From Thermococcus sp. 21S9 (GTDB taxonomy: Archaea; Methanobacteriota_B; Thermococci; Thermococcales; Thermococcaceae), in contig NZ_SNUS01000001.1 in the NCBI RefSeq assembly GCF_012027635.1, forward strand, positions 868,001-932,000: a stretch of DNA of 64,000 nt, read 5' to 3'. The translations under genes and the position numbers were made by a program. Under the pieces are notes generated by a model. It ran no database searches. It had not been told where the DNA came from and saw nothing but the letters and a program-made list of their open reading frames with translations. Below are positions 33,874-56,570 of this stretch, one piece after another (the stretch's first letter is position 1; each line of letters starts with the position of its first letter).

Positions 33874-33887
33874 AGGGGGTGTGAAAG

Positions 33888-34424: not shown

Positions 34425-34433
34425 TTTCTTTTC

Positions 34434-34463
34434 GGGGCCTTTGCCCCAACCCCTTTAAGGGGG
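34434..34463 (+). promoter_or_regulatory. Tandem intercistronic hairpins, second one covering a ribosome binding site
   Basis: GGGGC-CTTT-GCCCC (34434-34447) is followed by CCCC-TTTAA-GGGG (34450-34462). The second 3' arm is part of GGGGGAG, the ribosome binding site of the signal peptidase gene. The pair probably lowers signal peptidase output relative to the two structural subunits, by termination, processing or occlusion. Confidence 0.5.
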
Positions 34464-34470
34464 AGTTGCT

Positions 34471-35529
34471 ATGAAGAAAATACTCGAGTTCACGTTTGCT
34501 TTCATCGTCATTGCCTTTCTCACAGGTTCATTAGTCGGTTTCTTCCTTGACCGTCCCGTGTTTCTGTCGTACGCTTACTCAAGCAGTATGACGCCTACGA
34601 TAGACAAGGGAGACCTCTTCTTGATGAACCCATTCGCCCGGAACTTTGACGTCGGCGACATAATAGTCTTTCACAGGAGTGATGGGTGGACGGTTCACAG
34701 AATCTTCGCGGTTACCGAGGACGGCTTCATAACCAAGGGCGACAACAACGTCGCGACGGACCAGCAGAACGGTCTGTATCCTCCCGTTAAGGAGTCGGAC
34801 GTGGCCGGGAAGGTGGTCGTTCTCTTCGGCAAGCCCCTCGTCCTCAGGGGTGGCGGAGACCTGGTTCAATCCTTAAGAACGAGACTCAGCAACGTCTACG
34901 CGATAGCGATTCTGCTCCTCGTTGGGGCGTTCCTGACCTTCTCGGGAGGCTCCAAGAGAAAAAAGCGAGTTAAGTACTACCGGGTTAGCGTTAAGACACT
35001 CTACGCGGTCGCTTCGGTCTTCATAATCGCCGGCTTCCTCTTCGTGACCGTGGCCTCGTGGGGAACGCTGGCCTTCAGCTACTCCTCCACCCTCGCCGGT
35101 GGACAGAGGGACGGCTGGTACCTGCCAGGTTCAACCTTCGAGAAGAACCTCAGCGTCACGAACAACGCCGTTTACCCGTTCTACTACTTTGTGAGCGGTG
35201 GTAGCGAGAGGGTTCAGCTCCTCGGCCCGACGTTCTTCCGCATCGACGGCGGTTCGAGCGTTAGTGTTCCGGTTCACGTCACGGTTCCCCAGGACACGAG
35301 GATTTACCGCGAGGAGTTCCAGGTGAGGTCTTACCCCGCAATACTTCCCGCTTCCCTCGTGGTCTTCCTGTACTCGTTCAGCCCGTATCTCCCGCTCGTG
35401 GCCTACGCCCTGCTTCTCACTGGATTGCTCGTGGTCTTCTACCGTCTCGCGGGGATTTCGGAGGGCGACATCCTTAGAATCAGAAAACGGAGGGGAAGTC
35501 TTCTCTCCAAGGTACTCGGAGATGGTTAG
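34471..35529 (+). CDS. SipW/ER-type signal peptidase I with extra C-terminal membrane domain
   Basis: 352-aa membrane protease that would cleave the signal peptides of the neighbouring surface proteins. An N-terminal helix is followed by the catalytic Ser39 in YAYSSSMTPTIDKGD and His76 in DGWTVHRIFAV. The His replaces the Lys of bacterial enzymes, as in archaeal/ER/SipW peptidases. KGDNN with Asp91 follows. After residue 150 come at least three more helices and a beta-rich external insert (STFEKNLSVTNNAVYPFYYFV), which ordinary archaeal signal peptidases lack. A housekeeping signal peptidase presumably exists elsewhere, and its position here marks it as dedicated. It overlaps no gene; the next starts two bases after its end. 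Confidence 0.9.
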   Translation: MKKILEFTFAFIVIAFLTGSLVGFFLDRPVFLSYAYSSSMTPTIDKGDLFLMNPFARNFDVGDIIVFHRSDGWTVHRIFAVTEDGFITKGDNNVATDQQNGLYPPVKESDVAGKVVVLFGKPLVLRGGGDLVQSLRTRLSNVYAIAILLLVGAFLTFSGGSKRKKRVKYYRVSVKTLYAVASVFIIAGFLFVTVASWGTLAFSYSSTLAGGQRDGWYLPGSTFEKNLSVTNNAVYPFYYFVSGGSERVQLLGPTFFRIDGGSSVSVPVHVTVPQDTRIYREEFQVRSYPAILPASLVVFLYSFSPYLPLVAYALLLTGLLVVFYRLAGISEGDILRIRKRRGSLLSKVLGDG

Positions 35530-35530
35530 C

Positions 35531-36403
35531 ATGAGAAAGTTTGTACTCCTTACAACCTTCCTCCTCGGACTGCTCCTCATCGTGGGCTCGAGCGGGAACT
35601 TTCGGGCTTACACCGCCAGCAGGAGCGTTGAGTTTGGGGTTGTGGGAGGGAATGATTCGTATATAGCCTACCGCTGTCTTTCAGACCCGGTTCCGGTTAA
35701 CGCCAGCTCCGGGGTGGAGTTCACTGCGATAACCGTGGAGAACCTGATGGACCGGCCGATAACGTTTCACGTTGCTGGGAACTACTCAGGTCTACCTGAT
35801 GGGCTTAGTGGAGACGTTGACAGTTCAACCTACACGCTCGACCCTGGGGAGTCGGTTTCCATAGGGGGTAGCTTCTCCGCTGATGATGACGTCGAAGACG
35901 GCACCTACGGGGTGCCCCTAACGGTTTACGCGGAGTGGGACGGCGGAAGCGCCCAGATTAAGGACTGCTCGATGTACGCAAGCGTTGAAAGACCAACTTA
36001 CGTGCTGAAGAAGGCCATAGTCGGGGACGTATACACCTACAGCCTCTTCGCCTGGAACGACATAACGCTCCAGCTTAACTTCACCAACAACGGGCCCGAA
36101 GGGGATTTCGTTATAAAAGACTTCATCCCGAATCCCGGCTGGAAGGCGGTGTACGTCGTAGGACTACCACAGCCGAGTTCGGGTAATGCCGATTTGCTCC
36201 TTAGCGTCGGCCACTGCGGTTGCTCCGGCTGGATGATAGTGTGGCACGTCCACGTTGCCCACGGGGAAACGGTTACCCTGAACATACCGATGGGGGCGGT
36301 TTTCTTCTGCAAGGGCGACTACGTTCTCAACTGCGGGGCCCACCTGTGCGGTGCCGACGTCGTTTCGAATAAAATCACTGTCCACGTAACTGGAGGTCGT
36401 TGA
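35531..36403 (+). CDS. Secreted NFR-type surface protein, larger relative
   Basis: 290-aa exported protein with signal peptide FVLLTTFLLGLLLIVGSSG. The mature start NFRAYTASRSVEFGVVGGND is the same motif as in the two DUF1102-like proteins, so it should be cut by the same peptidase. Two beta domains follow: one around ITVENLMDRPITFHV and DPGESVSIGGSF, and a C-terminal one with a cysteine cluster (GHCGCSG, FFCKGDYVLNCGAHLCG) that may form disulphides. It could be an accessory or capping subunit. ATG 35531 lies two bases after the peptidase stop. Confidence 0.78.
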   Translation: MRKFVLLTTFLLGLLLIVGSSGNFRAYTASRSVEFGVVGGNDSYIAYRCLSDPVPVNASSGVEFTAITVENLMDRPITFHVAGNYSGLPDGLSGDVDSSTYTLDPGESVSIGGSFSADDDVEDGTYGVPLTVYAEWDGGSAQIKDCSMYASVERPTYVLKKAIVGDVYTYSLFAWNDITLQLNFTNNGPEGDFVIKDFIPNPGWKAVYVVGLPQPSSGNADLLLSVGHCGCSGWMIVWHVHVAHGETVTLNIPMGAVFFCKGDYVLNCGAHLCGADVVSNKITVHVTGGR

Positions 36404-42182: not shown

Positions 42183-43184
42183 ATGGCGATAGTGGTTAAG
42201 GCCAACCCGAACATGCCCGAGGAAATCGCGCTCCTCTTTAGGAAACAGCACTACGAGCTCGTTGGGAGGCACAGCGGAGTTAAGCTCTGCCACTGGCTCA
42301 AGGAGAGCCTTACCAAGGGGCGCTTCTGCTACAAGCAGAAGTTCTACGGCATAGCGAGCCACCGCTGTTTGCAGATGACGCCCGTCTTGGCCTGGTGCAC
42401 CCACAACTGCATCTTCTGCTGGCGCCCGATGGAGGGCTTCCTCGGCACTGAACTGCCCCAGCCCTGGGACGACCCGGCTTTCATCGTCGAGGAGAGCATA
42501 AAGGCCCAGAGAAAGCTCCTCGTCGGCTACAAGGGCAACCCCAAGGTTCCGAAGGAGAAGTTCGAGGAAGCGTGGAACCCGAAGCACGCCGCGATTAGCC
42601 TCTCCGGCGAGCCGATGCTCTATCCGTACATGGGCGACCTCGTTGAGGAGTTCCACAAGAGGGGCTTCACTACCTTCATAGTCACCAACGGAACCGTTCC
42701 CGAAAGGCTGGAGGAAATGATTAGGGAGGACAAGCTCCCAACGCAGTTCTACGTCTCGCTGACCGCTCCTGACATCGAGACCTACAATCGCGTCAACGTC
42801 CCGATGATTCCCGACGGCTGGGAGAAGATAAAGGAAACCCTCAGGCTCATGCGTGACGCGGAAACGAGGACGGTGATAAGGCTCACCCTCGTCAAGGGCG
42901 AGAACATGCACAGCCCGGAAAAGTACGCCGAGCTGATTAAGATAGCCAACCCGATGTTCGTCGAGGCGAAAGCCTACATGTTCGTCGGCTTCTCGCGGAA
43001 CAGGCTCACCATCAACAACATGCCGAGGCACGAGGAAATCAGAGCTTTTGCCGAGGAGCTCGTGAAGCACCTGCCGGGCTATCACATCGAGGACGAGTAC
43101 GAGCCGAGCAGGGTCGTTCTCATCATGCGCGACGACGTGGACAGCAGAGGAAGGGGATTGACGGGAAGGTTCATTTCTGATTGA
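42183..43184 (+). CDS. taw1: tRNA 4-demethylwyosine synthase Taw1 (TYW1)
   Basis: 333-aa radical SAM enzyme that builds the tricyclic wyosine base at G37 of tRNA-Phe, using pyruvate. The radical SAM cluster motif is CTHNCIFCW (CxxxCxxC). A second set of cysteines upstream (KLCHWLKE, RFCYKQKFYGIASHRCLQ) would hold the additional cluster of TYW1. LSGEPMLYPYMGDLVEEFHKRGFTTFIVTNGT and YVSLTAPDIETYNRVNVP are family blocks. ATG 42183 follows AGGTGAG. Single gene. Its antisense strand is also open, which is a codon-bias shadow. Confidence 0.95.
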   Translation: MAIVVKANPNMPEEIALLFRKQHYELVGRHSGVKLCHWLKESLTKGRFCYKQKFYGIASHRCLQMTPVLAWCTHNCIFCWRPMEGFLGTELPQPWDDPAFIVEESIKAQRKLLVGYKGNPKVPKEKFEEAWNPKHAAISLSGEPMLYPYMGDLVEEFHKRGFTTFIVTNGTVPERLEEMIREDKLPTQFYVSLTAPDIETYNRVNVPMIPDGWEKIKETLRLMRDAETRTVIRLTLVKGENMHSPEKYAELIKIANPMFVEAKAYMFVGFSRNRLTINNMPRHEEIRAFAEELVKHLPGYHIEDEYEPSRVVLIMRDDVDSRGRGLTGRFISD

Positions 43185-43204
43185 TTCCACGCCACGTGGA
43201 AAAC

Positions 43205-43212
43205 TTTATTTA
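43205..43212 (+). promoter_or_regulatory. TATA box of the toroid-cetZ unit
   Basis: TTTATTTA lies about 35 bases before ATG 43247, with GGGGTGTGAG as ribosome binding site in the short leader. Confidence 0.5.
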
Positions 43213-43246
43213 TCTTCCGCTCCATTTTTGGTTGGGGTGTGAGTAT

Positions 43247-45472
43247 ATGAATAGGATAATGGCGGTTTTAATGGTCATCCTCCTGGTAATTCCCGGCGCT
43301 TACGCTGGCCAAATCAGTGGCGGTGTTAACTTTCTCTCGGACGCCTCGTCAAACGTTCAAAGCATCCGCGATATGAGCCTCGTTCTCATGGCACTCTCCG
43401 GTGCTCAGAAGGCCGTTGGCAACACCTCAGTGGATAAAATCGACTCCCTTGCCATGGAACTGCTCTCACTCCAGAACCCGGATGGCGGGTGGGGTTACCT
43501 TCCAAACGAGACAAGCAACGTGGTTGACACCTCTTATGCCCTCATCGCCCTTCTCAAGGCAGAGCCTTACGTTTCTCCTGTTCACCGCTCCTCCCTCGTT
43601 GAGGGTGTCTCGGGCGCGGTGTCCTACCTTCTCACGTCCTCGTCCGGTAAGGGCTGGGGCTACGTTCCTGGCAGTGCTCCCGCATTCTACCCGACCGTTA
43701 TGGCCGTTTGGGCCCTTGGTGAGTACGGCTATTACTACACTGCGAGCCCGGTAAAGGGGGCAATCGACTTCCTCCTCTCCGCTCCTTCGACCCTTCCCGC
43801 TCCCCAGGCTCTTGCGCTCAAGGTTATAGCCCTCCACGCCGTTAACTACCCCGTGCCCGACGACATCGTTTCCAACGTTGAGGAACTCCTCAGGAGCGAC
43901 TCGATAACGACCCTTGACAGGGCCATGCTCACTTATGCCCTTGAGCTCGTCAGGCCCCTTGACTTCACCACGTCCTTCTTCGTGAGCAAACTGCTTGAAC
44001 TCGCCAACGTTTCCGGGGACTACGCCTACTGGCTCTCGTCGCCAACTTACCCCCTCACAACTCCCGAGGTCGTTAAGACCTCTGCATTCGCGCTTATGGC
44101 CGTTGCATACCTTGAGCAGTACACCCCACAGCTCCCGGTTGAGGAGAACCCATACTCCGCCCCATGCTTCGAGCTTAAGGCCCTCCAGAACGACGACGGA
44201 GGCTGGCCCCTCGTTAAACCCGGCCCGTCAAACGAGAAGGCAACATACTACGCCCTCCTTGCCCTCAAGTACTGCGTTCCGACCAACGAGTCCATCGAGA
44301 AGGCCCTCTCGTGGGCCAGGGATGCCCTTGCCGTCGATGGGGAGAAGATGGTGAGCACCCACAGGTTCTCCTCCGCCTACTTCTACGCCCTTGAGACACT
44401 GCTCCACTTCAACGCCCTCTCGGCGGATGAAAAGGAGAAGGCCATCAACGACATAATCTCCTCCCAACTCCCCTATGGAATTGGCCTCTGGGGCAACAAC
44501 CTCGGCCCCCAGCCCTACCAGACGGCACTCGCAGTTAGGGCCCTCGTTGACCTTGGCGTCCCGGTGAACGACTCCCTCATTCAGCGCGCCGTTAAGTGGG
44601 TTCTTGGCACCTCCAACGGGGGATGGGGAATCTACGTTTCAACGCCCTACTTCTCCTACATGCTGAGGCCCGACGTCATGACGACCGTTTCGATAATCGA
44701 GGCCCTTCAGGGAATCGTGCCCGAGGACAAGCTCAAGCCTCACGCGGACTGGCTGGTTTCCCAGCGCGTTGACGGTGGCTGGGCCTACTGGAAGCCCTAC
44801 TACGACCCCGTGAGCGGTCGCGTTATCCAGGAGAAGCCCACCGTTGAGCTGACCGTCCGCGTCACCGACGTGCTGGAGAAGTTCGGCTACAACTTCAGCA
44901 AGGACACCCTCAACTTCGTCATCAAGGCCAAGCAGAGCGGTGAAATCAACGGAAAGTCCGTCGAGACGGCCTTTGCAGTTATGTATCTCTCCCGCTACAA
45001 GTTCATCCCGAAGGTCACCCTCGATAACGTCAGGCTGGCCCTTGGTTCCGAGCTCTTCACAATCGTGACCTCAGGTCTCTCCAAGAACGAGACCGACGAT
45101 ATAGTGAACTCTCTCGTCAGGCTCTACGGGAACTCCTTTGTGGTGTCCAATACGACTGAAATAGGCGAGGGCTACTACATAGTCGTGGCGCCCTACGGAA
45201 GCTACAACGTCTCCGCCTACAACCCCTACCTCGGCTTCCGCGTCGAGAATGGAAACGTAGTGGTGGCCAACTACACTGCACCGGTGAACTCCTCGATAGT
45301 GCTGGTTCCGGGCTACACACCGGACGGAAACGTGCTCTTCGTGTTCTACTCACCATCGAGCAGGTGGATGGCCGTAGAGCTCTTCACAACGGGCTTCATA
45401 CGCTACATAAGGGGCGACGCGATGGTGCTGACGTACGAGAACGACAGGTTCATCCAGAAGGTCGTGGGGTGA
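43247..45472 (+). CDS. Secreted alpha/alpha-toroid protein with terpene-cyclase/prenyltransferase-like repeats
   Basis: 741-aa exported protein: signal peptide MNRIMAVLMVILLVIPGAYA, then repeated helical units each carrying a GGWG-type turn. These are NPDGGWGYL, GKGWGYVPG, NDDGGWPLV, SNGGWGIYV and VDGGWAYWK, the QW-like repeats of squalene-cyclase/prenyltransferase toroids. No DxDD cyclase motif or zinc site was seen, so a binding or structural role outside the cell is more likely than catalysis. A beta-rich C-terminal part (from about residue 600) has sequons. ATG 43247 is set by the signal peptide. The cetZ start follows seven bases after its stop, so the two are co-translated. Confidence 0.82.
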   Translation: MNRIMAVLMVILLVIPGAYAGQISGGVNFLSDASSNVQSIRDMSLVLMALSGAQKAVGNTSVDKIDSLAMELLSLQNPDGGWGYLPNETSNVVDTSYALIALLKAEPYVSPVHRSSLVEGVSGAVSYLLTSSSGKGWGYVPGSAPAFYPTVMAVWALGEYGYYYTASPVKGAIDFLLSAPSTLPAPQALALKVIALHAVNYPVPDDIVSNVEELLRSDSITTLDRAMLTYALELVRPLDFTTSFFVSKLLELANVSGDYAYWLSSPTYPLTTPEVVKTSAFALMAVAYLEQYTPQLPVEENPYSAPCFELKALQNDDGGWPLVKPGPSNEKATYYALLALKYCVPTNESIEKALSWARDALAVDGEKMVSTHRFSSAYFYALETLLHFNALSADEKEKAINDIISSQLPYGIGLWGNNLGPQPYQTALAVRALVDLGVPVNDSLIQRAVKWVLGTSNGGWGIYVSTPYFSYMLRPDVMTTVSIIEALQGIVPEDKLKPHADWLVSQRVDGGWAYWKPYYDPVSGRVIQEKPTVELTVRVTDVLEKFGYNFSKDTLNFVIKAKQSGEINGKSVETAFAVMYLSRYKFIPKVTLDNVRLALGSELFTIVTSGLSKNETDDIVNSLVRLYGNSFVVSNTTEIGEGYYIVVAPYGSYNVSAYNPYLGFRVENGNVVVANYTAPVNSSIVLVPGYTPDGNVLFVFYSPSSRWMAVELFTTGFIRYIRGDAMVLTYENDRFIQKVVG

Positions 45473-45478
45473 AGGCCC

Positions 45479-46576
45479 TTGAGGGCCCTGATAATCGGAA
45501 TCGGCCAGTGCGGGACGAAGATAGCCGACCTGTTCGCGCTGGTTGACTTCGAAACCCTTGCAATAAACACCTCCCGTGGTGACCTCGACTACCTAAAGCA
45601 CGTCCCCCAGGACAGGAGAATCCTGATAGGTGAGAGCATAACCGGGGGCAAGGGCGTCAACGCGAACCCAATACTGGGCAGGGAAGCCATGAAGCGCGAC
45701 CTACCGCTCGTGATGCGCAAGATAAACTCCATAGTCGGCTACGAGGACGTTGACATCTTCTTTCTAACCTTCGGCTTCGGCGGTGGAACCGGCGCCGGCG
45801 GAACGCCCGTCCTTGCTGAGGCCCTCAAGGAGGAGTACCCGGACTCGCTCGTCGTTGCCATCGGCGCGCTCCCGCTCAGGGAAGAGGGGATAAGGCCCAC
45901 AATCAACGCGGCGATAACGATAGACAAGCTCTCCAAGATTGCGGACTCGATAATCGCTATAGACAACAACAAGCTGAAGGAGGGCAACGACGACATAAGC
46001 CGGGCCTACGAGAGGATTAACTACACGATAGTTGAGAGGATAGCCTCGCTTCTTGCCTTAGTCGACGTCCCCGGCGAGCAGACCCTTGACGCGAGCGACC
46101 TCAAGTTCGTCCTCAAGGCCTTTGGAAGCTTTGCAACGGTTGGCTACGCCAAGGCTGACGCGAGCAAGGTGAAGAGCCTGTCGAGGCTAATCATCAAGTC
46201 CTTCGAGAGCGAGGGACTGTATTTGGATGCCAACATTGAGTCCGCCCTCTACGGTCTCGTTGCCATACACGGCCCGCCGGAGGTTCTCAAGGCTGGAGAC
46301 ATCTTCGAGGCCCTCGATTACCTCACGAGCAAAATCAGGGGCAAGCAGATTTTCCGCGGTTTCTACCCGGACCCGCGCGAGAGGGAAGTTGAGGTTGTGA
46401 CGCTCCTCAGCGGAATCTACGAGAGCAAAAGCATCGAGGAAATCGTTAAAACCGCCAAGCAGTACGCCAGGTCCTTCATGGAGGCCAAAAAAGAGGCTGA
46501 AACGAAGAAGAGCGAGCTCCTCAGCGGTTTGCCGGACTTCGACGACATCTACCCGGTTCCCGAGGGTGAGGAGTGA
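45479..46576 (+). CDS. cetZ: CetZ-type tubulin/FtsZ-superfamily GTPase
   Basis: 365-aa cytoskeletal GTPase. The nucleotide-binding signature is FGFGGGTGAGGTPVLAEAL (GGGTGAG at 101-107). The N-terminus MRALIIGIGQCGTKIADLFALVDF and SLVVAIGALPLREEG are closer to archaeal CetZ than to FtsZ, and the FtsZ C-terminal partner-binding tail is absent. CetZ proteins of haloarchaea control cell shape and motility. The TTG start at 45479 follows GGGGTGAAGG inside the end of the toroid gene. The next gene begins at this gene's last codon. Confidence 0.88.
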   Translation: MRALIIGIGQCGTKIADLFALVDFETLAINTSRGDLDYLKHVPQDRRILIGESITGGKGVNANPILGREAMKRDLPLVMRKINSIVGYEDVDIFFLTFGFGGGTGAGGTPVLAEALKEEYPDSLVVAIGALPLREEGIRPTINAAITIDKLSKIADSIIAIDNNKLKEGNDDISRAYERINYTIVERIASLLALVDVPGEQTLDASDLKFVLKAFGSFATVGYAKADASKVKSLSRLIIKSFESEGLYLDANIESALYGLVAIHGPPEVLKAGDIFEALDYLTSKIRGKQIFRGFYPDPREREVEVVTLLSGIYESKSIEEIVKTAKQYARSFMEAKKEAETKKSELLSGLPDFDDIYPVPEGEE

Positions 46577-47193
46577 TGGAGAACATCAAGGACTCGGTGG
46601 AAGTCGCGCTCGAACTCGACGAGAAGTCGGTTTATTCCCACATCGCCCACGAAAGTGCGGAGGACATAATCAGAATTATCTCATCCCTCGACGCCGAGAG
46701 GGCAAAGCTCCACGGCGAGGTTATTTACTACACCGACGACTGGGACGCGCTGATAAGGGAGAGGATGGCCAAAGGAAAGCGTCATACGGCCTTTGACTTT
46801 TACAACCCTGCCCTGCTCGACATCTGGGAGGAGAAGGTTAAGCTCGGAAAGAGGCTGAAGAGGCTTGAAAAGATTACCTACGCGGTTCTCGGAGGTATTG
46901 TTGGGCTGACTGGCCTTGCGACGGTTCTGACTGGAACCCCTTTCATCCTGCTCGGTCTCGCCCTTCTTCCCCTGGCGGTCGCCGTAAGGGACAGGGTGAA
47001 GAGTTCGCTCGACCTTCTCTACTACGAACTCACCCAGTTCTTCATAGACGAACTCCGGGCAATCGTCACAAAACACGGGCTCACTCCCGAGAAGTACAAG
47101 TTTAAACTCTTCACGGGGGGTTATTTTGGCGTAGAAACAAAAAGAACGCCTTCAGGCATATTTGCGGTAGTTGAAGGCAAATCTGGGGAGTAA
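46576..47193 (+). CDS. Membrane protein coupled to cetZ
   Basis: 205-aa protein not assigned to a family. A soluble N-terminal region of about 95 residues ends in basic KVKLGKRLKRLEK, two close transmembrane helices follow (ITYAVLGGIVGLTGLATVLTG and PFILLGLALLPLAVAV), and a soluble C-terminal domain of about 80 residues begins RDRVKSSLDLLYYEL. Both ends are probably cytoplasmic, which suits a membrane anchor or partner for CetZ. ATG 46576 overlaps the last base of cetZ. The next gene has its own promoter. Confidence 0.75.
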   Translation: MENIKDSVEVALELDEKSVYSHIAHESAEDIIRIISSLDAERAKLHGEVIYYTDDWDALIRERMAKGKRHTAFDFYNPALLDIWEEKVKLGKRLKRLEKITYAVLGGIVGLTGLATVLTGTPFILLGLALLPLAVAVRDRVKSSLDLLYYELTQFFIDELRAIVTKHGLTPEKYKFKLFTGGYFGVETKRTPSGIFAVVEGKSGE

Positions 47194-47205
47194 CCGTTAA
47201 ATAGG

Positions 47206-47213
47206 TTTTTATT
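47206..47213 (+). promoter_or_regulatory. Likely promoter of the pilin-like operon
   Basis: TTTTTATT within AATAGGTTTTTATTCGTATAA follows the upstream stop, with a strong GGAGGGAGTGAG ribosome binding site before ATG 47240. Confidence 0.5.
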
Positions 47214-47239
47214 CGTATAAACTTTACGGAGGGAGTGAG

Positions 47240-47854
47240 ATGGGGTTAGTCTTTAAAAGGCGCGGTCAGATTTCACTTGAATTCATGCTGGTGTTCTCAA
47301 TAATGCTGATTATGCTACTCTACTCCGTCAAAAACGTTGGTTTCGACTCGAACTCGCCCTCCTCCGGGACCCTGGCCATCCAGATGGCCCTCGAGGAGAA
47401 GAGCGTTGCGAACGTCATAGCCGGGGCAATCGACCAGGTCTACGCCCAGGGTCCCGGCTCAAAGGTTACGGTTTACGCGCACTTCAACCTGCTCCGCAAC
47501 TCCAAGTACATAACGAGTGCCTTCAACGTAACCTCCCCCCAGGTGCAGTTGCTCTTCCTTGGAACTAACGACCCGCTCTTCCCTGCCGGTGCTGAGAACT
47601 CCGTGGTCGCCGTCGCTGTTGCAAACTCAACTGTTGGCCCTGTGCTTACCGGCTCCAACAGAACGGGAGTTTGGGTTCAGACGTACTTCCTCTACAACGC
47701 TACCTCGCCGACGGGTTTCGTCGTTGCCCTCAACCCCGCAGACGTTCCGGGTACCATGAAGGTCGTCGTTGAGTGGAACCCCGCGAAGCCGGTTTTGATG
47801 GTGTACAACAGCACCTCCGAGACCCTGTACATAAACATAAAGCCGGGTGCCTGA
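47240..47854 (+). CDS. Class III signal-peptide pilin-like protein 1
   Basis: 204-aa type IV pilin-like protein. A basic leader ending KRRG is followed by QISLEFMLVFSIMLIMLLYSV, the class III (QxSxEF) signal that archaeal prepilin peptidase cuts between G and Q. The hydrophobic helix would form the pilus core and the beta-rich remainder with sequons the outside. It is first of a tight row of related genes, so it may be the main subunit or a priming minor pilin. No assembly ATPase or TadC-like platform gene lies in the window. Confidence 0.85.
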   Translation: MGLVFKRRGQISLEFMLVFSIMLIMLLYSVKNVGFDSNSPSSGTLAIQMALEEKSVANVIAGAIDQVYAQGPGSKVTVYAHFNLLRNSKYITSAFNVTSPQVQLLFLGTNDPLFPAGAENSVVAVAVANSTVGPVLTGSNRTGVWVQTYFLYNATSPTGFVVALNPADVPGTMKVVVEWNPAKPVLMVYNSTSETLYINIKPGA

Positions 47855-47855
47855 G

Positions 47856-48284
47856 ATGAGGGGACAGATAAGCCTTGACCTGCTCTTTGCAGTCGCCATA
47901 ATATCAATAACAATGCTGAGCGTGATGAACGTTGCCCTGAGCGAGAAGACCGAGACGGAGGTTCTCGGCACGTCGGCCCAGCTGAAGGCCTTCGCCATAG
48001 ACCTGAGGGGAACGGTGGCGAGGCTGTACTCATCCCCCGGGATGACCGTTGTCAAGGAGGCTCCTGTGGAACTCGGGCCCGGGGACTGGATTAACGTAAC
48101 CCTCACGGCCGACGGTTATCTGCGGGTTCGCGCCCAAATCGGCGGTAGGGAGTACGTTGTAGTGGAAAAGCTCCAAGTGCCTCCAGGGACTACCAGCTCG
48201 GTACTGTTGACCCAGTCCGCTCCCGTGTTTAAGGTTTCATCAAGGAGGTCGCCCGATGGTGTGGAAGTCGTCGTCGAAACGTAG
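47856..48284 (+). CDS. Class III signal-peptide pilin-like protein 2
   Basis: 142-aa pilin-like protein with a very short leader MRG before QISLDLLFAVAIISITMLSVM. Asp replaces the usual Glu at +5. The body is short and beta-rich (DWINVTLTADGYLRVRAQIGG). The start at 47856 follows the previous stop by one base. Its end overlaps the next gene by 29 bases. Confidence 0.83.
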   Translation: MRGQISLDLLFAVAIISITMLSVMNVALSEKTETEVLGTSAQLKAFAIDLRGTVARLYSSPGMTVVKEAPVELGPGDWINVTLTADGYLRVRAQIGGREYVVVEKLQVPPGTTSSVLLTQSAPVFKVSSRRSPDGVEVVVET

Positions 48285-48726
48285 GGGTCAGACCGCAATC
48301 GAGTTGCTGTTCATAACTGCGATAATCCTGACCGGGATAGTCTACATTCTCCCCTCCGTCGTGTACTCGAATCAAGCTGTCTCGCTCTCGGATGCCTTTA
48401 GAACCGCCGGTTCGGACGTCTGCTCGTACCTCAACACCGGCGTCGTGGTCAACGACTCCCTTCACGCGCCCCTCAACAACCTCGTTGAGCTGTGGAACTA
48501 CACCCCGCTCGGCTGTCGCTTCGTTGGCCTGTCCGTGGAAACGAACTCCTCCGTTAACGCAACACTCGTCTTCGAGTATCCCGGGGGAGCCTTTCCCAAC
48601 GCCTTTGGGGGGAACGTGACGCTTTACCTTAAGCTCAGGCTTTCGCGTATCTCGGGCTTCAAGCTGGTCGGCGAGAACCTGTACTACGGCGAGAAACCGG
48701 TTAACATTACGGTGGTGGTGAGATGA
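48256..48726 (+). CDS. Class III signal-peptide pilin-like protein 3
   Basis: 156-aa pilin-like protein. The leader MVWKSSSKRRG precedes QTAIELLFITAIILTGIVYILP, keeping the +5 Glu. The external part carries two cysteines (DVCSYLNT and LGCRFVG) that may form a disulphide, and several sequons. It overlaps both neighbours (29 and 4 bases), so the row is translated as one unit. Confidence 0.83.
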   Translation: MVWKSSSKRRGQTAIELLFITAIILTGIVYILPSVVYSNQAVSLSDAFRTAGSDVCSYLNTGVVVNDSLHAPLNNLVELWNYTPLGCRFVGLSVETNSSVNATLVFEYPGGAFPNAFGGNVTLYLKLRLSRISGFKLVGENLYYGEKPVNITVVVR

Positions 48727-50462
48727 GGCGCGGTCAACTCCTGAGTTTTGACGCCCTCCTTGCGGTGGTTATGGTAATCTTCATGCTCGGCGCGGTTAGT
48801 GCTACCTCCGACAACCTGAAAGCGGGCATAACGAACCTTCTCGGCTGGTATGATAGGACGAGCATTCCCGATACTATGCTCGATGTCCTCCTTCAGAGCC
48901 CTGGAACTCCTCCGAACTGGAACGAGAACGTCTCTGCCCTCGTGGTTCCCGGGCTGAGGGCGTCATCTGGTCAGTACGTTGACTACAACAAGGCCGTTAC
49001 CTTCTTTGACCTGCTCAAGAACAACGATTCTCGCGTTCAAAGTGCCCTCCTGAACCTCAGCTTGGGTCACCCGTTCCTGCTCGACTTCTACCTCGGCAGG
49101 TGGACGTTCAAGGCGAACTTCACGTGGAACCCGAACGCGAGCGGTGGAACCGTCCCCCCTGGTTTCGTGGTTTACAACGGAACCTGCGCAATCAGGGGAA
49201 GCGTTACCCTGACGTTTCCAGACCCCACGATACTGCCCTGTGAGCCACTTGACGTCAGGGGTTCCGCCCGTATAGTGGCGGACTCCAACCTCTGTATAGT
49301 GGGCTCGATAGGCGTTGACACCAGGGGTTCAATAACCGTTGACGTCGGTGATTATCCACCTTACCAGTCGTACCCGTACCTCGCGATAGGCGGAGACTGG
49401 GAGATAATCGGTGCGGGTACCGTTTACGTAGCCGGCAACACCTACGTCCAGGGCGCCCTCATAGTCCGCGGTATCGGTTCGCGCTCAATCAACATCGCGA
49501 AGGACCTCATTATCTACGGGGACACTACCAACCCGTACGTTATAGACATGGCCGGTGCATCGGCCACGATAAACGTTGGAATCGCGGGTTATACGCCTGG
49601 AAACGTTTACGTTCGCGTTAACGGGGTGTGGTACGCCTCCAACGAGACCGATGTGTGGTACGAGAAGACCTCAACCGGATGGAAGCGCATTCAGGGTGTT
49701 CCACCTGGAATCGTCCTTCCTGCGGGAGTCCTCAGGGTCAACGGGTACCCGCTGTCTCCAGATTGGGTCCCACCTGCCCCTCCGGAATGTTTGAGCTTTG
49801 GAACCGGCCAGCCACTCGCGGTGTCGTCCCTCCTCGGTAACTACACCTACCCCCAGGAGCTAAACGCGAGCGAGGCGTGGAACAGGGTGGCCTACACGAA
49901 CGCGTCGTTCCTCGTTAACCCCTCCAACGTCTCAAGCGTTTTGGAGGCCAGAACCAACGCGACGTGGGTCTCTTACTCAGAGAGGAACACTGTGATGAGC
50001 CTGTTTAGGTACAACAGCACCATAACGATTGTCGGCAACGACTCGGGCATTGTACTCGCGGGCGTTCTGCGTTACGATGTGCCGGACTACGCCATGCTCC
50101 GCGTTGATGTTCCTGCCGAGACGGGTTACGTCCTTCTTATAGCAGTCGATGGGGGAACCCTCAAGGCAATCGGCATATGGAAGACCTCGGTTAACGGGTC
50201 GGTCAACGCGGAAGTCTGGGAGGATAGCGGTACCGGCCTCAGTACCGTTGCAACTTTCAGGGGTTCCAACACCTCCGTGACGATTCCCTGGAGCGTAATC
50301 TTCAGCGGACCGGCGGGCTTTGGCAGGCCCGTTCTGCTCTACATGTACTCCAATGGGTTCACCGGGCCGGTAACGCTCGTTGACGAGGGTGACATAGGGG
50401 TTCTTATGACACCGATGTACGAGCCCCTGCTTGTAAAACTCTGGGTGTGGGATGAGCCATGA
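48723..50462 (+). CDS. Large pilin-like surface protein with beta-helix-like middle
   Basis: 579-aa protein starting MRRGQLLSFDALLAVVMVIFMLG, a degenerate class III leader (G|Q, then Asp near +6) and helix. The middle (about residues 150-300) is a run of short beta repeats (VRGSARIVADSNLCIVGSIGVDTRG and AIGGDWEIIGAGTVYVAGNTYVQGALIVRG) resembling a polymer-forming or beta-helix domain. The rest is beta-rich with many sequons. It is probably a minor or tip-proximal subunit. It overlaps both neighbours by four bases. Confidence 0.78.
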   Translation: MRRGQLLSFDALLAVVMVIFMLGAVSATSDNLKAGITNLLGWYDRTSIPDTMLDVLLQSPGTPPNWNENVSALVVPGLRASSGQYVDYNKAVTFFDLLKNNDSRVQSALLNLSLGHPFLLDFYLGRWTFKANFTWNPNASGGTVPPGFVVYNGTCAIRGSVTLTFPDPTILPCEPLDVRGSARIVADSNLCIVGSIGVDTRGSITVDVGDYPPYQSYPYLAIGGDWEIIGAGTVYVAGNTYVQGALIVRGIGSRSINIAKDLIIYGDTTNPYVIDMAGASATINVGIAGYTPGNVYVRVNGVWYASNETDVWYEKTSTGWKRIQGVPPGIVLPAGVLRVNGYPLSPDWVPPAPPECLSFGTGQPLAVSSLLGNYTYPQELNASEAWNRVAYTNASFLVNPSNVSSVLEARTNATWVSYSERNTVMSLFRYNSTITIVGNDSGIVLAGVLRYDVPDYAMLRVDVPAETGYVLLIAVDGGTLKAIGIWKTSVNGSVNAEVWEDSGTGLSTVATFRGSNTSVTIPWSVIFSGPAGFGRPVLLYMYSNGFTGPVTLVDEGDIGVLMTPMYEPLLVKLWVWDEP

Positions 50463-52600
50463 GGCGAGGTTTTGTTTTTACCCTTGATGCAGTCCTCGCT
50501 CTATTCCTTGTCCTCATTATGATAACCGCCATCACCACAGCCGAGAGCCAGGTCCAGTCCGTTTACAAGACGAAGATGCGGATGGGAGAGCTTGGGGACG
50601 CGAACGCCATGCTCAAACTCCTCCGTACCGTCCCGCTGAGTCAGCTCGTTCCTGCGGACGTCGTTCAGAAGTGGGAGAACGGACCGGACCCTGTAATCAA
50701 CCTGACCCTCGTGTCCCCGGATATGAGCCCCCTTGAGATAGCCGCCACGTACTGGGCGGTCAGCCCGCTTTACCCCTCCCAGAACTACCGGGAGAAGGCT
50801 TCAATAATCCTCGGCTACATCCTGAATTCTACACTCAAGGGCTACAACTACGAGCTCCTGATAAACAACTGGACGGACGCTTTCATGAGCAAGGGAACCT
50901 ACAACTACACCCTTGCGAGGGACGTCTCTGCCGCGACCCTCGTGCTCAGCGGTTACTCCTACAACCAGACTCCGAGGGGTTACGTTGCGAGGGCTTTCCT
51001 GAGCAAGCTGAGGGAGAAAGTCACAAGCTACGTTTACCAGGGTGACTACATCGCCACGAAGCACGGAAGCAGGGACATCGAGATAACGTACATCATCCCA
51101 ACAAGTCAGTTCCCCGTTAACTCGACTGTGCTGAACGTTACATGGTACCTTGAGCCCGCTTACACATACTCCTACTACGACGTTTCCCTCAACGGTTACT
51201 CCCTCGACAGCTGTCTCCCGAGGTACGGGCTCGTTGATTACGGATACGAGATAACCTCCTCCTCGTGTCCTGCATTGGCCACCCTCGTTCAGGATGCCGT
51301 TGACAACGGGAGTGACTCCAACTTCACTGTGGTTGTTTCCAAGGACTACCAGGTGGCCGGTGAGGACGGTGCCCAGCACATCATAATAACTTACTCTACC
51401 TCGCAGGCGTCCACCTTCAAGTATCCCCACTACTATTACTTCGCAGACGTCAAGACGTACGATTCGGTCTACATTGAGAAGTACGTTTTCGTGCCCGGAA
51501 ACCTAACGGACCTCTCCATAAAGCTGGCCGGTGAGAACATAAAGTCCGTGACTGCAAGTATTCGCGTCTACGGCGTTGACTCGAGGAGCTTCCCGCTGAT
51601 TGACGAGGGTGGTTACTTCGTCGCCGACAACAGTACCCTGGCATCGGTTGTGGAGGGAATGGGCTTCAACTACTCGGACCTCTCCGGGACTTACTTCACG
51701 ATACTCTTCAACGTCACCTGGGACGGCACGGGTGAGCTCCACATCGACGGAAGGAACTCCTACGTCTACGCCGACTACATCCCCTTCACCGCAATGAGTC
51801 TTTACTCAGTTGACGTTACCCAGCTCATAAACGACTACACCGTTGACCCCACCACCGAGTACTACAACACTGGCTTCTACGGCGACGTTCAGTGGGACTG
51901 GAACATCCCCGACTACGCGACCCCGCTGTATACTACCTTCCAGCTCCCCTGGCTCCACATAGTTGGTTCCAACTCGCCCTGTGAGCAGAAGGTCTCAATC
52001 CTGATGAACGCGACGACCAACACCTGGGTCAAGCTCTACGATGCTCCGGTTTACAACACCTTCATCAACGCCTTCGCCCGCTGGGGGTACACGACCGTAA
52101 CAAGGGACTACCTCGGCAATCCCGTCGAGAACGCCCTCCACGGCGGTCACAACGCGCTTCACCTTCAGTTTGGTAGCTGTTACTACGTCTCGCCCGAGCA
52201 CGCACTTGCCTCAGTGGTGTACCTGCTCAATGCATACGCTCCCTACGGAAACGTTAAGCCCTACCTGATGCAGGGCTATCCCAACGTCAAGGCTTACAAC
52301 CTGACATACGCCTACAACGTGAGCGGTGTGGTGAGGTACGGCTCCATAATAGTTGGCGATTCAACGGCGATAGAGAGCGGGGAGTACATGAACCTGACTG
52401 CCTGTGACCTCAAACCCGATGAATACGCGGTTGACGACGCCATACTGAGGCTGTTCAACAACCTCGGCGGAGACGGCTGTACCAAGCCTGTGCTCGTTGA
52501 CCTCGGCGACACGATGATAAACTACGTCTCCCTTCCCGGCGTTCCGAGGTCTATCTCTCCGATAACCGTTACCCTTAGGGTGTGGAGGGTTGGTGGATGA
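50459..52600 (+). CDS. Large pilin-like surface protein (713 aa)
   Basis: Starts MRRGFVFTLDAVLALFLVLIMI, the same leader-plus-helix design but with Phe in place of the conserved Gln after the cleavage Gly. The long external region is rich in Tyr, Asn and Thr, has many sequons and several cysteines (SCLPRYG, SSCPALA, SPCEQKV, GSCYYVS), and no catalytic motif was recognised. Family unknown. A role as minor pilin or adhesin shaft is inferred from the leader and operon. It overlaps the next gene (ATGA at 52597-52600). Confidence 0.75.
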   Translation: MRRGFVFTLDAVLALFLVLIMITAITTAESQVQSVYKTKMRMGELGDANAMLKLLRTVPLSQLVPADVVQKWENGPDPVINLTLVSPDMSPLEIAATYWAVSPLYPSQNYREKASIILGYILNSTLKGYNYELLINNWTDAFMSKGTYNYTLARDVSAATLVLSGYSYNQTPRGYVARAFLSKLREKVTSYVYQGDYIATKHGSRDIEITYIIPTSQFPVNSTVLNVTWYLEPAYTYSYYDVSLNGYSLDSCLPRYGLVDYGYEITSSSCPALATLVQDAVDNGSDSNFTVVVSKDYQVAGEDGAQHIIITYSTSQASTFKYPHYYYFADVKTYDSVYIEKYVFVPGNLTDLSIKLAGENIKSVTASIRVYGVDSRSFPLIDEGGYFVADNSTLASVVEGMGFNYSDLSGTYFTILFNVTWDGTGELHIDGRNSYVYADYIPFTAMSLYSVDVTQLINDYTVDPTTEYYNTGFYGDVQWDWNIPDYATPLYTTFQLPWLHIVGSNSPCEQKVSILMNATTNTWVKLYDAPVYNTFINAFARWGYTTVTRDYLGNPVENALHGGHNALHLQFGSCYYVSPEHALASVVYLLNAYAPYGNVKPYLMQGYPNVKAYNLTYAYNVSGVVRYGSIIVGDSTAIESGEYMNLTACDLKPDEYAVDDAILRLFNNLGGDGCTKPVLVDLGDTMINYVSLPGVPRSISPITVTLRVWRVGG

Positions 52601-55600
52601 AGAGGCGAGGCTTCATAATAAACTCAACCGTTCTCGTTCTTCTCATACCCTTACTCCTGCTTCTCGCCACCTACAGCAACGTTACCTCATACGTTCTTCA
52701 GGCTCAATCACAGGCGACCCGTTTGAAAACGACGCAGGACGTTGTATCGTACCTTCAACTCGACCTCCAGAACGTCATGAGGCTCTCGATTAAGAGGGCC
52801 CTCGTCCTCAGCATAGCCTTCGTGACCTCCGTGCAACCCCTTGACAACGCCCAGCTCGCCCTCGAGGACCTCGTCAAGTACGGGGCGTATCCCCAGATAA
52901 CCTCGGCCGGCGCGGACTGGGCGTCCCGGGAGAGGCAGTTCATGGGAAACGCCACTCTACTCGACTGGCTGAACAACATGAGGGACTACCTCGCCACGAT
53001 GGGGTACAGGATGGTCACTCCCCCATCCCAGGTGCTGGACAGCATAAACCTGACAATCGCCCCCCTTGACTCCTTCCACATAGTTGCGAACGTCACTATT
53101 CCCCACATCGTCATCGAGGACTCCTCTGGCAAGATAGTCTACAACTCGAGCATTCCCCCAACTGGCTCGCTCTACGTCGTCGTGCCAATCACTAACCTTG
53201 AGGACCCCCTTGTTTCGTACCTCACCAGGGGCAGGCTCTCCAGGGTCATAAACCCCTGCCAGTTCGCGTACCCAAACATAACCCCTCCCTACTACCTCCT
53301 CACGGGGTACGGTGACCCGGAGACGATGCCCCTCAAGTTCGCCGCACCCTTCGCGCCCACGATAGCCTCAGATAAAATCTACTACGGCGACACATATCCG
53401 GGAGACGGCGCCCTTGCTTATGTTCTCAAGGACCAGCCCACGACCACCCCAAGCTCGGCCTTCGTCTTTGATACCCGCGTAAACGGCTCACTCGTGTCTC
53501 CGTCGGATGTTCTTAAGGATGGCAACATGGGTGTTATGGTCTTCTCCGGAACCGTTGGAGCGGGCACTACATGGTGTGACGACAACTATGCCATGAAGAC
53601 CGATTTCACCCTGTCAGGCGTCTCCGATGGTCAGGTAGTCCTGCTGAAGTTCAACCCTGCTACGGTTCCGTTTTCCCAGATACGGCACAACGGCTCCTAC
53701 GCCGATTTGAGGATATACACCTCAAGCTGTGTTCCCGCCCGCTACTGGATTGAAAAATGGGACTCGAACGAGGTCTTGATTTGGCTCAACGTCACCGGAA
53801 CATCTTATTCAATCTACTACTCCTCCGACACCGGCGCTCCCCTGAGCAGGGGATACCTCAACAACGTCTTTGGCAACAACTACGTTGAGAACGTTACCCT
53901 TTCCCCCGGCCAGTCTCTCTTCCTCTTCAACACTACTTCCCCTGTCTTCATCCGCTACAACGCCTCAGCATCAGCCAACGCAGACTTCGGGGGAGGTGTC
54001 TCCCTGAACGTCTCGGCCCGGATTCCCGCTAACGTCCTCAACGTGTCCCTTGATTACCCATCGAGCGTTTCCGACGTCCAGGTGCCTGTGTACCTCAACT
54101 CAACCTGGGCTTCGCTGATTCCCCACTCCGGCAACGAGGCAAGGATTGAGGTTTACTCCGACCCAAGCCTAACGACCGCCCTGCCCTTCTGGATTGAGTA
54201 CTGGAACAACAATGGCGCCCTCATATGGGTGAGGACGAGCGTCCCAGGTAACGTTTACATCCGCTTCGGCGATGACCTTCCCCTAACCCAGGGCAACGGA
54301 AGTCAGGTCTTCGAGTTCTTCGACGACTTCTCATATCTGACGGCTGGACTGCCCGGCTCGACCATAGCGAGCCTGCTGGAGAGCCACGGTTGGAACGTCG
54401 GGGGCGACACAGATTATCTGACCTCCGGAAACGGGGTCCTTGATGTCAGCGGGGACTCGAGCTGGTACTATCCTGAGGTGTGGCTGTGGACGCAGAAGAG
54501 GTTCCCCTATTACACCTACGTCGTGGGAATGGGTGTTAAGCTAAACGGGGAGCCTTTCCTCGGGTGGTACATCACGAGCACCGACATCGGATTGATTGAG
54601 CATATCTATTACTCCAGCTTCTACAACGGCTACTATGGACACCTCTACACCTTTGACTTCGACCAGGGTGACGAGCTGTCCTATTACGGAACCGGTGGTG
54701 AGTACCTGTACAACGCCTGGACCCACCTTGAGATTGCCATCGACTGGACATCAACGGGTGGAGTGTACTTCGAGACCTACCAGAACCAGACGGGTCCGTT
54801 CACTGGAACCTGGGGTGGCGATACAGTGAGCGTCAGCTACTACTCGACCTTCTACCCCTACAGCAACACCGCCATAGGCCTTGGACAGTTCTACGGTGGC
54901 CCCACTGAGTACGACTTCGTCTACGTGAGGAAGTACCTCGACCTCAGTGCCCTTGACGAGAACGTTAGCAGGGTGTACACCGAGAAGTCCACCTCTTTCC
55001 AGCTCGTCGACAACTGGACCACCTCCGGAAGGCTCTTCATACTCCAGGACTGGAACACAACCCTCGCGAGTTATCCGGCAGGAACCTGGCCGATTGACGT
55101 TCCCAACCGCTACGAGGTCGATGTGGTTCCGTACACCAACCTGTTCCTCAACTACACCCACGAGCCCAACTCCGCAGTGTCCCAGAACTCGAACTCAATA
55201 GTCAACGTTTCAGTTGCCGGCAACATTAGCGTTTACCTGACCGTGAACAACAGCGCAGGAAACTCCGCCCACTTTTCCTGGGTCTTCTGGGCACCGTATC
55301 CGTACAGTGTGCTCTCTCCTGTGCTTGGGGCTCCCCAGCAGAGGCCACCCGCGGGCAACTACGTGAGTGCAAGGGTCTTCGACATTCAGCCCTTCATAAG
55401 TTGCATCCTCGACGACAGGTACTTCGGCGTTGCCGGGGCACCGTCTTTCTTTGAGCGCCTTGAGGGCGGAAGCTCTGTTCACAGGGCCCATTACGTCGCC
55501 CTTGCCCAGGCCATGCAGAAGGCCGTTTACGGAAGCGTTAAGTACCCCATCGGCCTGGTGAGTTTCATACTCCCCAAGAACCTCCCTGCAAACCTGAACT

Positions 55601-55821
55601 TCCTCGTTCGCGAGCAACCTGCCGTGGACTACATCTACCTCGACTACGCCGATTACCCCGGCGACGACCCCAGCGCCATGCAGGTCCTTGGAATATCAGC
55701 CACTGGCGGAATATCAACGACTCCCGTCCTGGACCAGAACTTTTACCTTACCCCGACCACAGCAAGCCTCATATTCGGCCCGTACGCCAACGACCTGCTC
55801 GTTCCAATAGGCTCAGGGTGA
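52597..55821 (+). CDS. Giant pilin-like adhesin with DUF2341-like domains
   Basis: 1074-aa protein starting MKRRGFIINSTVLVLLIPLLLLLATYS, a pilin-type leader and helix. Two units resembling DUF2341, a domain of secreted sugar-binding or adhesive proteins, are visible near residues 345-430 (LRIYTSSCVPARYWIEKWDSNEVLIWLNV) and 480-570 (VPVYLNSTWASLIP, then IEVYSDPSLTTALPFWIEYW and NVYIRFGDD). A lectin-like jelly-roll stretch follows (FEFFDDFSYL onward). As the largest and last pilin-like gene it is the best candidate for the fibre tip. The ATG overlaps the upstream stop. Function inferred. Confidence 0.75.
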   Translation: MKRRGFIINSTVLVLLIPLLLLLATYSNVTSYVLQAQSQATRLKTTQDVVSYLQLDLQNVMRLSIKRALVLSIAFVTSVQPLDNAQLALEDLVKYGAYPQITSAGADWASRERQFMGNATLLDWLNNMRDYLATMGYRMVTPPSQVLDSINLTIAPLDSFHIVANVTIPHIVIEDSSGKIVYNSSIPPTGSLYVVVPITNLEDPLVSYLTRGRLSRVINPCQFAYPNITPPYYLLTGYGDPETMPLKFAAPFAPTIASDKIYYGDTYPGDGALAYVLKDQPTTTPSSAFVFDTRVNGSLVSPSDVLKDGNMGVMVFSGTVGAGTTWCDDNYAMKTDFTLSGVSDGQVVLLKFNPATVPFSQIRHNGSYADLRIYTSSCVPARYWIEKWDSNEVLIWLNVTGTSYSIYYSSDTGAPLSRGYLNNVFGNNYVENVTLSPGQSLFLFNTTSPVFIRYNASASANADFGGGVSLNVSARIPANVLNVSLDYPSSVSDVQVPVYLNSTWASLIPHSGNEARIEVYSDPSLTTALPFWIEYWNNNGALIWVRTSVPGNVYIRFGDDLPLTQGNGSQVFEFFDDFSYLTAGLPGSTIASLLESHGWNVGGDTDYLTSGNGVLDVSGDSSWYYPEVWLWTQKRFPYYTYVVGMGVKLNGEPFLGWYITSTDIGLIEHIYYSSFYNGYYGHLYTFDFDQGDELSYYGTGGEYLYNAWTHLEIAIDWTSTGGVYFETYQNQTGPFTGTWGGDTVSVSYYSTFYPYSNTAIGLGQFYGGPTEYDFVYVRKYLDLSALDENVSRVYTEKSTSFQLVDNWTTSGRLFILQDWNTTLASYPAGTWPIDVPNRYEVDVVPYTNLFLNYTHEPNSAVSQNSNSIVNVSVAGNISVYLTVNNSAGNSAHFSWVFWAPYPYSVLSPVLGAPQQRPPAGNYVSARVFDIQPFISCILDDRYFGVAGAPSFFERLEGGSSVHRAHYVALAQAMQKAVYGSVKYPIGLVSFILPKNLPANLNFLVREQPAVDYIYLDYADYPGDDPSAMQVLGISATGGISTTPVLDQNFYLTPTTASLIFGPYANDLLVPIGSG

Positions 55822-55826
55822 TGTAA

Positions 55827-56570
55827 ATGGCAGTGGACGAGTTCCTTTACTCAATCGGTGAGGGGGTAGAGCGCATCGCCTCCGCCTTCAGGTCTTTCAT
55901 TTTCCCTGAACCTGCTGAGAACCCGCCTCGTTTTGGCTTCACGCGGAGGCTCGTTAAATCCAGGGTCACGCTCCACGAGCTCTTCAGCCTTCACCTCCAG
56001 CTCTGCTTCCTGCTCTACCTGGCCCTGAACTTTGTGGTGGTGTTCCTGGTGAGTAGCCCCCTGTGGGTGCTCGTCCTGGCGGTTCCCTACTTCCTGTACC
56101 TCCGCTACCTTTTCAACCGCTACGGTCACTTTCTCCTCGAGGAAAAACCCTATCGGGTCTTCTACACAGTAATCTCGGCACTCTCTTTCCTTGCGTTCTT
56201 TGGCTACTCCCTCGTCAGGCTATACGCCGGCGGAGTTCTCTACGTTTACGCCTACGTGATGGGGATAGCCGTCCTCGTCCTGCTCTTCCGCTGGTACTTC
56301 AAGAGAACCTTCGGCAGAGACTACACGTACGGCGTCGTCGAGGAACTCAAAGGCGACCTCGTCAGGGTCTTCGTACACGATGACCTCTCCGCCAATGTCA
56401 AGCCCGGCCTTTACTGGCTTCCGGCGGTTCCCGACGCCGAGCCCGGAAGGGTCGTTAAGGTTCTCGTGGAGGACAGGGCTTTCCGGAGCGCCAAGCCCGT
56501 GAGGATAATAGAGGTTTACCTCTCTCAGTCCTCCCAGAGCTCCACCGAGCCGAAGAACGCAACGGAGTGA
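55827..56570 (+). CDS. DUF2101-like membrane protein
   Basis: 247-aa protein with an amphipathic N-terminus (MAVDEFLYSIGEGVERIASAF) and four helices (LQLCFLLYLALNFVVVFLV, PLWVLVLAVPYFLYLRYL, VISALSFLAFFGYSLVRLY and YVYAYVMGIAVLVLLFRWY). A soluble domain, FGRDYTYGVVEELKGDLVRVFVHDDL, follows. The pattern matches archaeal DUF2101. It starts five bases after the giant adhesin and is probably last of that operon, so it may help assembly or anchoring. Confidence 0.78.
   Translation: MAVDEFLYSIGEGVERIASAFRSFIFPEPAENPPRFGFTRRLVKSRVTLHELFSLHLQLCFLLYLALNFVVVFLVSSPLWVLVLAVPYFLYLRYLFNRYGHFLLEEKPYRVFYTVISALSFLAFFGYSLVRLYAGGVLYVYAYVMGIAVLVLLFRWYFKRTFGRDYTYGVVEELKGDLVRVFVHDDLSANVKPGLYWLPAVPDAEPGRVVKVLVEDRAFRSAKPVRIIEVYLSQSSQSSTEPKNATE

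Follow-up and report, generated by a model that had tools for sequence, protein, structure and literature searches.

A run of genes in a 64,000-nucleotide stretch of the Thermococcus sp. 21S9 genome (contig NZ_SNUS01000001.1, positions 868,001 to 932,000; hereafter the window, to which the coordinates of the locus refer) includes six pilin-like genes, p1 to p6, which probably encode the minor pilins of a clade 1 (Epd-like) type IV pilus of the Thermococcaceae. We put at roughly 70% the probability that their products make up a minor-pilin tip complex, with gene order running from shaft to tip and with p6 as the cap. The leader series of these proteins falls into three discrete classes, with an acidic residue at mature position +5, at +6 or absent, and the class is fixed for each gene slot.

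Conservation was evaluated in 40 loci of 19 kb each, picked from the 82 genomes bearing p5, with long contigs favoured. These 82 come from the 94 family genomes searched with p5, which was found in 71 of the 74 of good quality; across the Thermococcus phylum, the p5 profile matches 85 of 115 genomes in six of 12 genera, and all the matches listed fall within the Thermococcaceae. The six genes are as follows, with lengths in amino acids (aa) and leader residues counted from the predicted mature start.

47240..47854, + strand: p1, class III prepilin, mature start QISLEF, Glu at +5 (40/40 loci), 204 aa; PF04021, E 1.9e-5
47856..48284, + strand: p2, prepilin-like, QISLDL, Asp at +5 (40/40 loci), 142 aa counted from an internal ATG
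48256..48726, + strand: p3, prepilin-like, QTAIEL, Glu at +5 (40/40 loci), 156 aa; PF04021, E 0.0042 (below cut-off)
48723..50462, + strand: p4, putative large minor pilin, QLLSFDA, Asp at +6 (40/40 loci), 579 aa
50459..52600, + strand: p5, putative large minor pilin, FVFTLDA, Asp at +6 (40/40 loci), beta-sandwich body in the AlphaFold2 model, 713 aa
52597..55821, + strand: p6, putative giant minor pilin, leader FIINST, acid-free (40/40 loci), DUF2341 (PF10102, E 3.9e-17) and a lectin-like insert, proposed tip cap and adhesin, 1074 aa

Leader registers of the six slots

A sequence-only reading of this DNA had reported six proteins with a basic leader, a glycine and a hydrophobic stretch, and all six were recovered as open reading frames at the positions and with the leader strings and sizes it quoted. 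It had also described the QISLEF signal as weakening step by step along the run, a description that does not hold. Instead, the registers are E5, D5, E5, D6 and D6 for p1 to p5, and p6 carries Asn at +4 in 40/40 loci and an acid at +5 or +6 in none. Because each of the six leader patterns is kept in all 40 relatives, they are not due to chance. A polar residue at +4 is common to p4 (Ser or Thr), p5 (Thr) and p6 (Asn), and the residue at −1 is Gly or Ala in 40/40 loci for every slot except p2, where one locus has Ser. Compared with the EppA-type pattern of Gln at +1 and Glu at +5, p1 and p3 fit, p2 has Asp at +5, p4 combines Gln at +1 with Asp at +6, and p5 and p6 start with Phe or Tyr.

As a control against circularity, slot 5 was assigned with a p5 profile lacking the leader, slots 4 and 6 were taken as its neighbours, and cleavage sites were chosen by a picker without any preference at +1. 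This assignment, blind to leaders, returned the same registers in 40/40 Thermococcaceae loci for slots 4, 5 and 6, and the unbiased picker agreed for these slots with our first one, which favoured Gln or Phe at +1. In the two further archaeal groups described below, an intermediate picker called four slot-4 or slot-5 proteins acid-free (two p5 from small-genome archaea; a p4 and a p5 from the Altiarchaeales-containing group), with the site placed one residue early, which we read as picker errors; it also detected no leader for two p5 and five p6 among the small-genome archaea, nor for one p4 and two p6 from the Altiarchaeales-containing group.

Register in two further archaeal groups

The p5 profile matches 25 of 34 genomes in a phylum of small-genome archaea (G115 phylum) and 21 of 29 in the phylum containing the Altiarchaeales (G116 phylum); in the G117 phylum it matches one of 300 genomes, and this sole match is a doubtful contig. 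Counterparts of both p5 and p6, the C-terminal core of the latter included, were retrieved from the first two groups with the Thermococcaceae profiles at E ≤1e-3. For the analysis of leaders we used 20 fetched loci plus locus L108 from the small-genome archaea, and 20 loci from 18 genomes from the Altiarchaeales-containing group.

Among the small-genome archaea, the acid stands at +6 in 21 of 22 slot-5 proteins, the odd one being a fragment, and in all 19 slot-4 proteins, three of which hold an acid at +5 as well, while slot 6 is acid-free in 15 of 16. The corresponding counts for the Altiarchaeales-containing group are 23/23 for slot 5, 11/15 for slot 4, with Glu as the residue at +6, and 11/12 acid-free for slot 6. 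Register exceptions in these groups are mostly tandem cassettes: three of the four slot-4 exceptions in the Altiarchaeales-containing group are the p6 of a preceding cassette and the fourth has an acid at +5, and two downstream neighbours in the unbiased assignment are second p5 genes, not p6. Slots 1 and 2 show Glu at +5 in 20/21 and 8/8 proteins of the small-genome and Altiarchaeales-containing groups, respectively, and the single departure is probably a misassigned protein. Over the three phyla, every slot-5 protein with a readable leader (84/84) has its acid at +6. An alignment of 17 p5 sequences from Thermococcaceae and small-genome archaea contains only three invariant columns, one of which is the Asp at +6.

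The ordered six-protein signature may reflect how the pilus tip is built. We would go further only tentatively, and with somewhat more doubt than belief, in proposing that an ancient address code resides in the position of the acid (+5, +6 or absent) and sets the stacking order of minor pilins from shaft to tip, with gene order, register and filament layer matching one to one, and that this code is common to the Thermococcaceae, the Altiarchaeales-containing group and the small-genome archaea. A shift of the acid by one residue would rotate it some 100 degrees about the helix axis and might thereby offer the layers that carry it at +6 a different partner contact. This register code appears to be unreported in print, since we found no description of it, or of its occurrence in the two further groups, in the open-licence papers searched; in the same literature we found no description of an archaeal pilus tip either.

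Several loci deserve separate mention. A slot-4 relative in L108 (9462-10001) carries acids at both +5 and +6 and is a possible intermediate between registers. Tandem p5-p6 cassettes occur in three loci of the Altiarchaeales-containing group (L198, L199 and L206), suggesting several alternative tips per genome. Two contigs with p4-p5-p6-DUF2101, in an Altiarchaeales metagenome-assembled genome (MAG) and a Thermoproteota MAG (L095 and L098), look like misbinned Thermococcus contigs, and the p5 match of genome G116 itself is among these doubtful ones. Additionally, DUF7288 (PF23959) matches seven of 17 slot-5 N-termini (window 50459-51151 plus 16 relatives) with E of 0.1 or lower, 1.2e-4 for the best, a hint of relatives in other archaea.

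Gene neighbourhood, protein bodies and pilus motor

The order of p1 to p6, CetZ and mp8 is identical in 40/40 loci; for p1 to p6 this bears out a check put forward with the sequence-only reading, that of co-conservation and gene order across the Thermococcales, for the Thermococcaceae sampled. That reading had delimited a seven-gene operon from p1 to a DUF2101 gene, with five of six junctions tight. These seven genes do belong together, DUF2101 included, and all six junctions are in fact tight, either overlapping or separated by no more than 5 bases (in order, p1 through DUF2101: +1, −29, −4, −4, −4 and +5 bases), and the conserved run reaches further upstream, amounting to ten genes on the plus strand (43181-56570). 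The remaining four genes are:

43181..45472, + strand: secreted alpha/alpha-toroid protein (squalene-cyclase/prenyltransferase-like), first in the run; PF13243, E 3.9e-9, and PF13249, E 1.9e-7; 38/40 loci (no match in L071 and L082)
45479..46576, + strand: CetZ tubulin-like GTPase; PF00091, E 2.7e-30, and PF21011 (CetZ_C), E 1.7e-16; 40/40 loci
46576..47193, + strand: mp8, small membrane-type protein with a hydrophobic hairpin; no family matched in a Pfam search at an E threshold of 0.01; 40/40 loci
55827..56570, + strand: DUF2101 membrane protein, last in the run, 247 aa; PF09874, E 6.6e-73; 39/40 loci (no match in L085)

Two loci contain split genes, p4 in L067 and DUF2101 in L075, each in two pieces. 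A sigma-70 scan yielded nothing useful; such a scan is not applicable to archaea.

The mature length of p6 varies across loci from 354 to 1138 residues, in three groups (354-475, 710-856 and 1057-1138). DUF2341 was identified in 32 of 41 p6 proteins and the invariant columns lie at both ends, with a variable middle, so that the p6 head looks like a module set into a conserved core; the p6 of L108 aligns to this core with most of the middle missing. The AlphaFold2 models of p5 (predicted template modelling score, pTM, 0.71) and p6 (pTM 0.44) each contain one long N-terminal helix, at 9-57 and 3-78, respectively. Residues 427-902 of p6 may form a ConA-like beta-sandwich, with a resemblance to legume-type lectins (VIA: Z 13.7, root-mean-square deviation 3.2, 150 residues aligned, 338 of 989 chains with Z of at least 8), with a best Foldseek E of only 3.0e-3, and this lectin-like head suggests a possible role in adhesion. 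An ordered minor-pilin or tip set whose last member is a large adhesin-like protein, as had been read from the sequence, is thus in keeping with the DUF2341 domain, the lectin-like fold and the constant gene order.

Sequence searches of the PDB with the p5 and p6 profiles gave no significant match. We rejected whole-chain relatives for p5, because the template modelling score by query length was at most 0.15 among the Foldseek matches listed, and its resemblance to BcsB (VIA, best Z 8.6 across 114 residues) was read as a common beta-sandwich only. Nor do we claim common ancestry for the bodies of p5 and p6, since their profile comparison matched the leader alone (33 columns, probability 40).

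The 64-kb window contains no match to T2SSE or T2SSF, both of which are present elsewhere in the genome. The sequence-only reading was therefore right that no ATPase or platform gene lies here; its further suggestion, that the archaellum or another machine must be borrowed, falls short in that the genome holds a pilus machine of its own. About 150 kb from the locus, a PilB ATPase gene (717955-720036) adjoins genes for DUF515, a secreted protein and two TadC proteins (one PF00437 gene and two PF00482 genes at 718-722 kb), and PilB relatives occur in 94/94 family genomes. Gene context would assign this motor to clade 1; we take its PilB to be the ATPase long known as KlbA. A separate ATPase/platform pair at 269-272 kb is presumably of archaellum type, as judged by gene size and arrangement, and we rejected the archaellum as the assigned motor, as unnecessary given the other motor set. 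Short class III pilins are encoded at 264464, 1535629, 1535886 and 1195305, the last one scoring under the family cut-off, and that at 264464 is adjoined by an A24 peptidase gene of archaeal type (PF06819, E 2.2e-31). As a side observation, one PilB of the family (L218, G025:C1:1559200-1562850) carries an intein, with Intein_splicing and LAGLIDADG domains, and several others are split identically at residues 528-532; the Thermococcus sp. 21S9 copy is uninterrupted.

From sequence and structural models we infer an assembly in which cleavage, placement at the tip, the sequence of subunits there, use of the PilB motor, adhesion and function are all predicted. A prepilin peptidase of archaeal type, whose gene lies elsewhere, would probably process the subunits, and PilB and the two TadC platform proteins would polymerise them onto the short, stand-alone major pilins. 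In this scheme p1 to p3 would be class III minor pilins of the ordinary sort, placed close to the shaft and linking to the major pilin, and p4, p5 and p6 would be large pilins, each nearer the tip than the last. The acid-free p6 would cap the filament and display its lectin-like DUF2341 head to bind surfaces or glycans; the lack of an acid at +5/+6 fits a cap because this subunit has no overlying subunit N-terminus to neutralise. Type IV filaments are described as growing from tip to base, with minor pilins as the tip complex and a cap subunit lacking Glu5 (PMC10191384).

Alternative explanations and known systems

Several observations weigh against a pilus tip complex. The genes for PilB, TadC and DUF515 are absent from the pilin run in all 40 of the 19-kb loci, PF04021 scores above its cut-off only in p1 among the six proteins, and we found no data on processing, localisation or pili for this family. 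Parts of the long helices are modelled with low confidence, the predicted local distance difference test score (pLDDT) falling under 50 across residues 24-43 in p5 and over some of residues 24-46 in p6, to which the modest p6 pTM adds, and Foldseek gave no whole-chain structural match, and none for p6 at E 0.001. Lastly, a signal-peptidase-like [AVS]xA motif follows the helix of p4 in 20/40 loci, and of p5 and p6 in 7/40 each. This motif, the non-canonical leaders of p4 to p6 and the presence of CetZ and membrane proteins within their own run would suit a different picture, in which p4 to p6 are membrane-anchored surface proteins, or are secreted through signal peptidase I, and join CetZ, DUF2101 and the toroid protein in a complex of the envelope. 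We consider this quite unlikely, because an ordinary signal peptide needs neither the basic-Gly/Ala site nor the fixed +4 and +6 residues, the motif is unconserved in p5 and p6, and in the two further archaeal groups, too, slots 4 to 6 come after canonical Q-E5 prepilins. Slightly less probable still is that p4 and p5 are cleaved one residue later, which by simple arithmetic would put the acid back at +5 and make the register shift only apparent: Gly/Ala-Gln is common to p4 and the E5 pilins, so that the cleavage anchor appears unchanged and the acid alone moves, and E5 and D6 coexist in three p4 relatives.

The main alternative, which is unlikely but more plausible than either of these, is a tip complex serving mainly DNA uptake, with p6 and p5 binding DNA or priming a competence pilus of the same motor. 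In a screen for loss of transformation in Methanococcus maripaludis, transposon insertions were recovered in the epd pilus locus, including the DUF2341 protein MMJJ_08210, and T. kodakarensis and P. furiosus are listed as competent (PMC10133366). However, we found no link of a pilus gene to competence in Thermococcales in the portions of the literature searched, and the lectin-like, size-variable head of p6 points to ligand diversity over DNA binding. The competence and adhesion readings are, in any case, compatible.

Contrary to the sequence-only reading, which knew of no described system of this composition, a Thermococcales locus with minor pilins and a CetZ/FtsZ-like gene is described by Makarova 2016 (PMC4858521) and by Brown and Duggin 2023 (PMC9856176); both predicted a pilus locus and left its function open, and our genes presumably correspond one by one to the published arCOGs. 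The clade 1 archaeal pili (Epd-type; PMC4858521) share with our case the class III minor pilins of Thermococci, DUF2341 proteins, proposed there as tip adhesins, an FtsZ-family GTPase, a squalene cyclase, an ATPase and two TadC; ATPase, two TadC and a large DUF2341 protein encoded with minor pilins are all found in Thermococcus sp. 21S9. Unlike there, the pilin run is here separate from the ATPase and TadC genes in 40/40 loci, and slot registers are not mentioned in the part of that paper available to us. The second paper reports a conserved cetZ beside seven pilin-family arCOGs in all Thermococcales analysed, in the excerpt available to us without leader, tip or cross-phylum analysis.

Other filaments are similar in part. 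The bacterial PilHIJK/GspHIJK tip complex (PMC10191384) has several minor pilins, a Glu5-less cap and tip-first assembly, whereas our set has large beta bodies without a whole-chain PDB match and two subunits with the acid at +6; the comparison is one of features. Myxococcus Tad/Kil pili (PMC12075869) have interchangeable tips of large modular minor pilins, but these are a bacterial KilLMN trimer, and the likeness is one of description. The Epd pili of Methanococcus maripaludis (PMC3875500, PMC10133366) combine EppA and DUF2341 genes with short Q-E5 pilins. The archaellum differs in that its ATPase and platform genes are absent from the pilin locus, the candidates lying at 269-272 kb. A tip cassette that is conserved and whose order code can be read would narrow the genes and point mutants worth testing for priming and capping in type IV filaments to a short list, in a group, Thermococcus, that is genetically tractable. 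It would also tie CetZ, DUF2101 and DUF2341 to a concrete machine, and slot signatures would reveal such cassettes where class III predictors overlook p4 to p6.

Elsewhere in the window, positions 33127-36403 hold a run that encodes a pair of secreted DUF1102 proteins, a signal-peptidase-like protein (S24/S26) and one more secreted protein; the run resembles TasA/SipW-type fibre loci.

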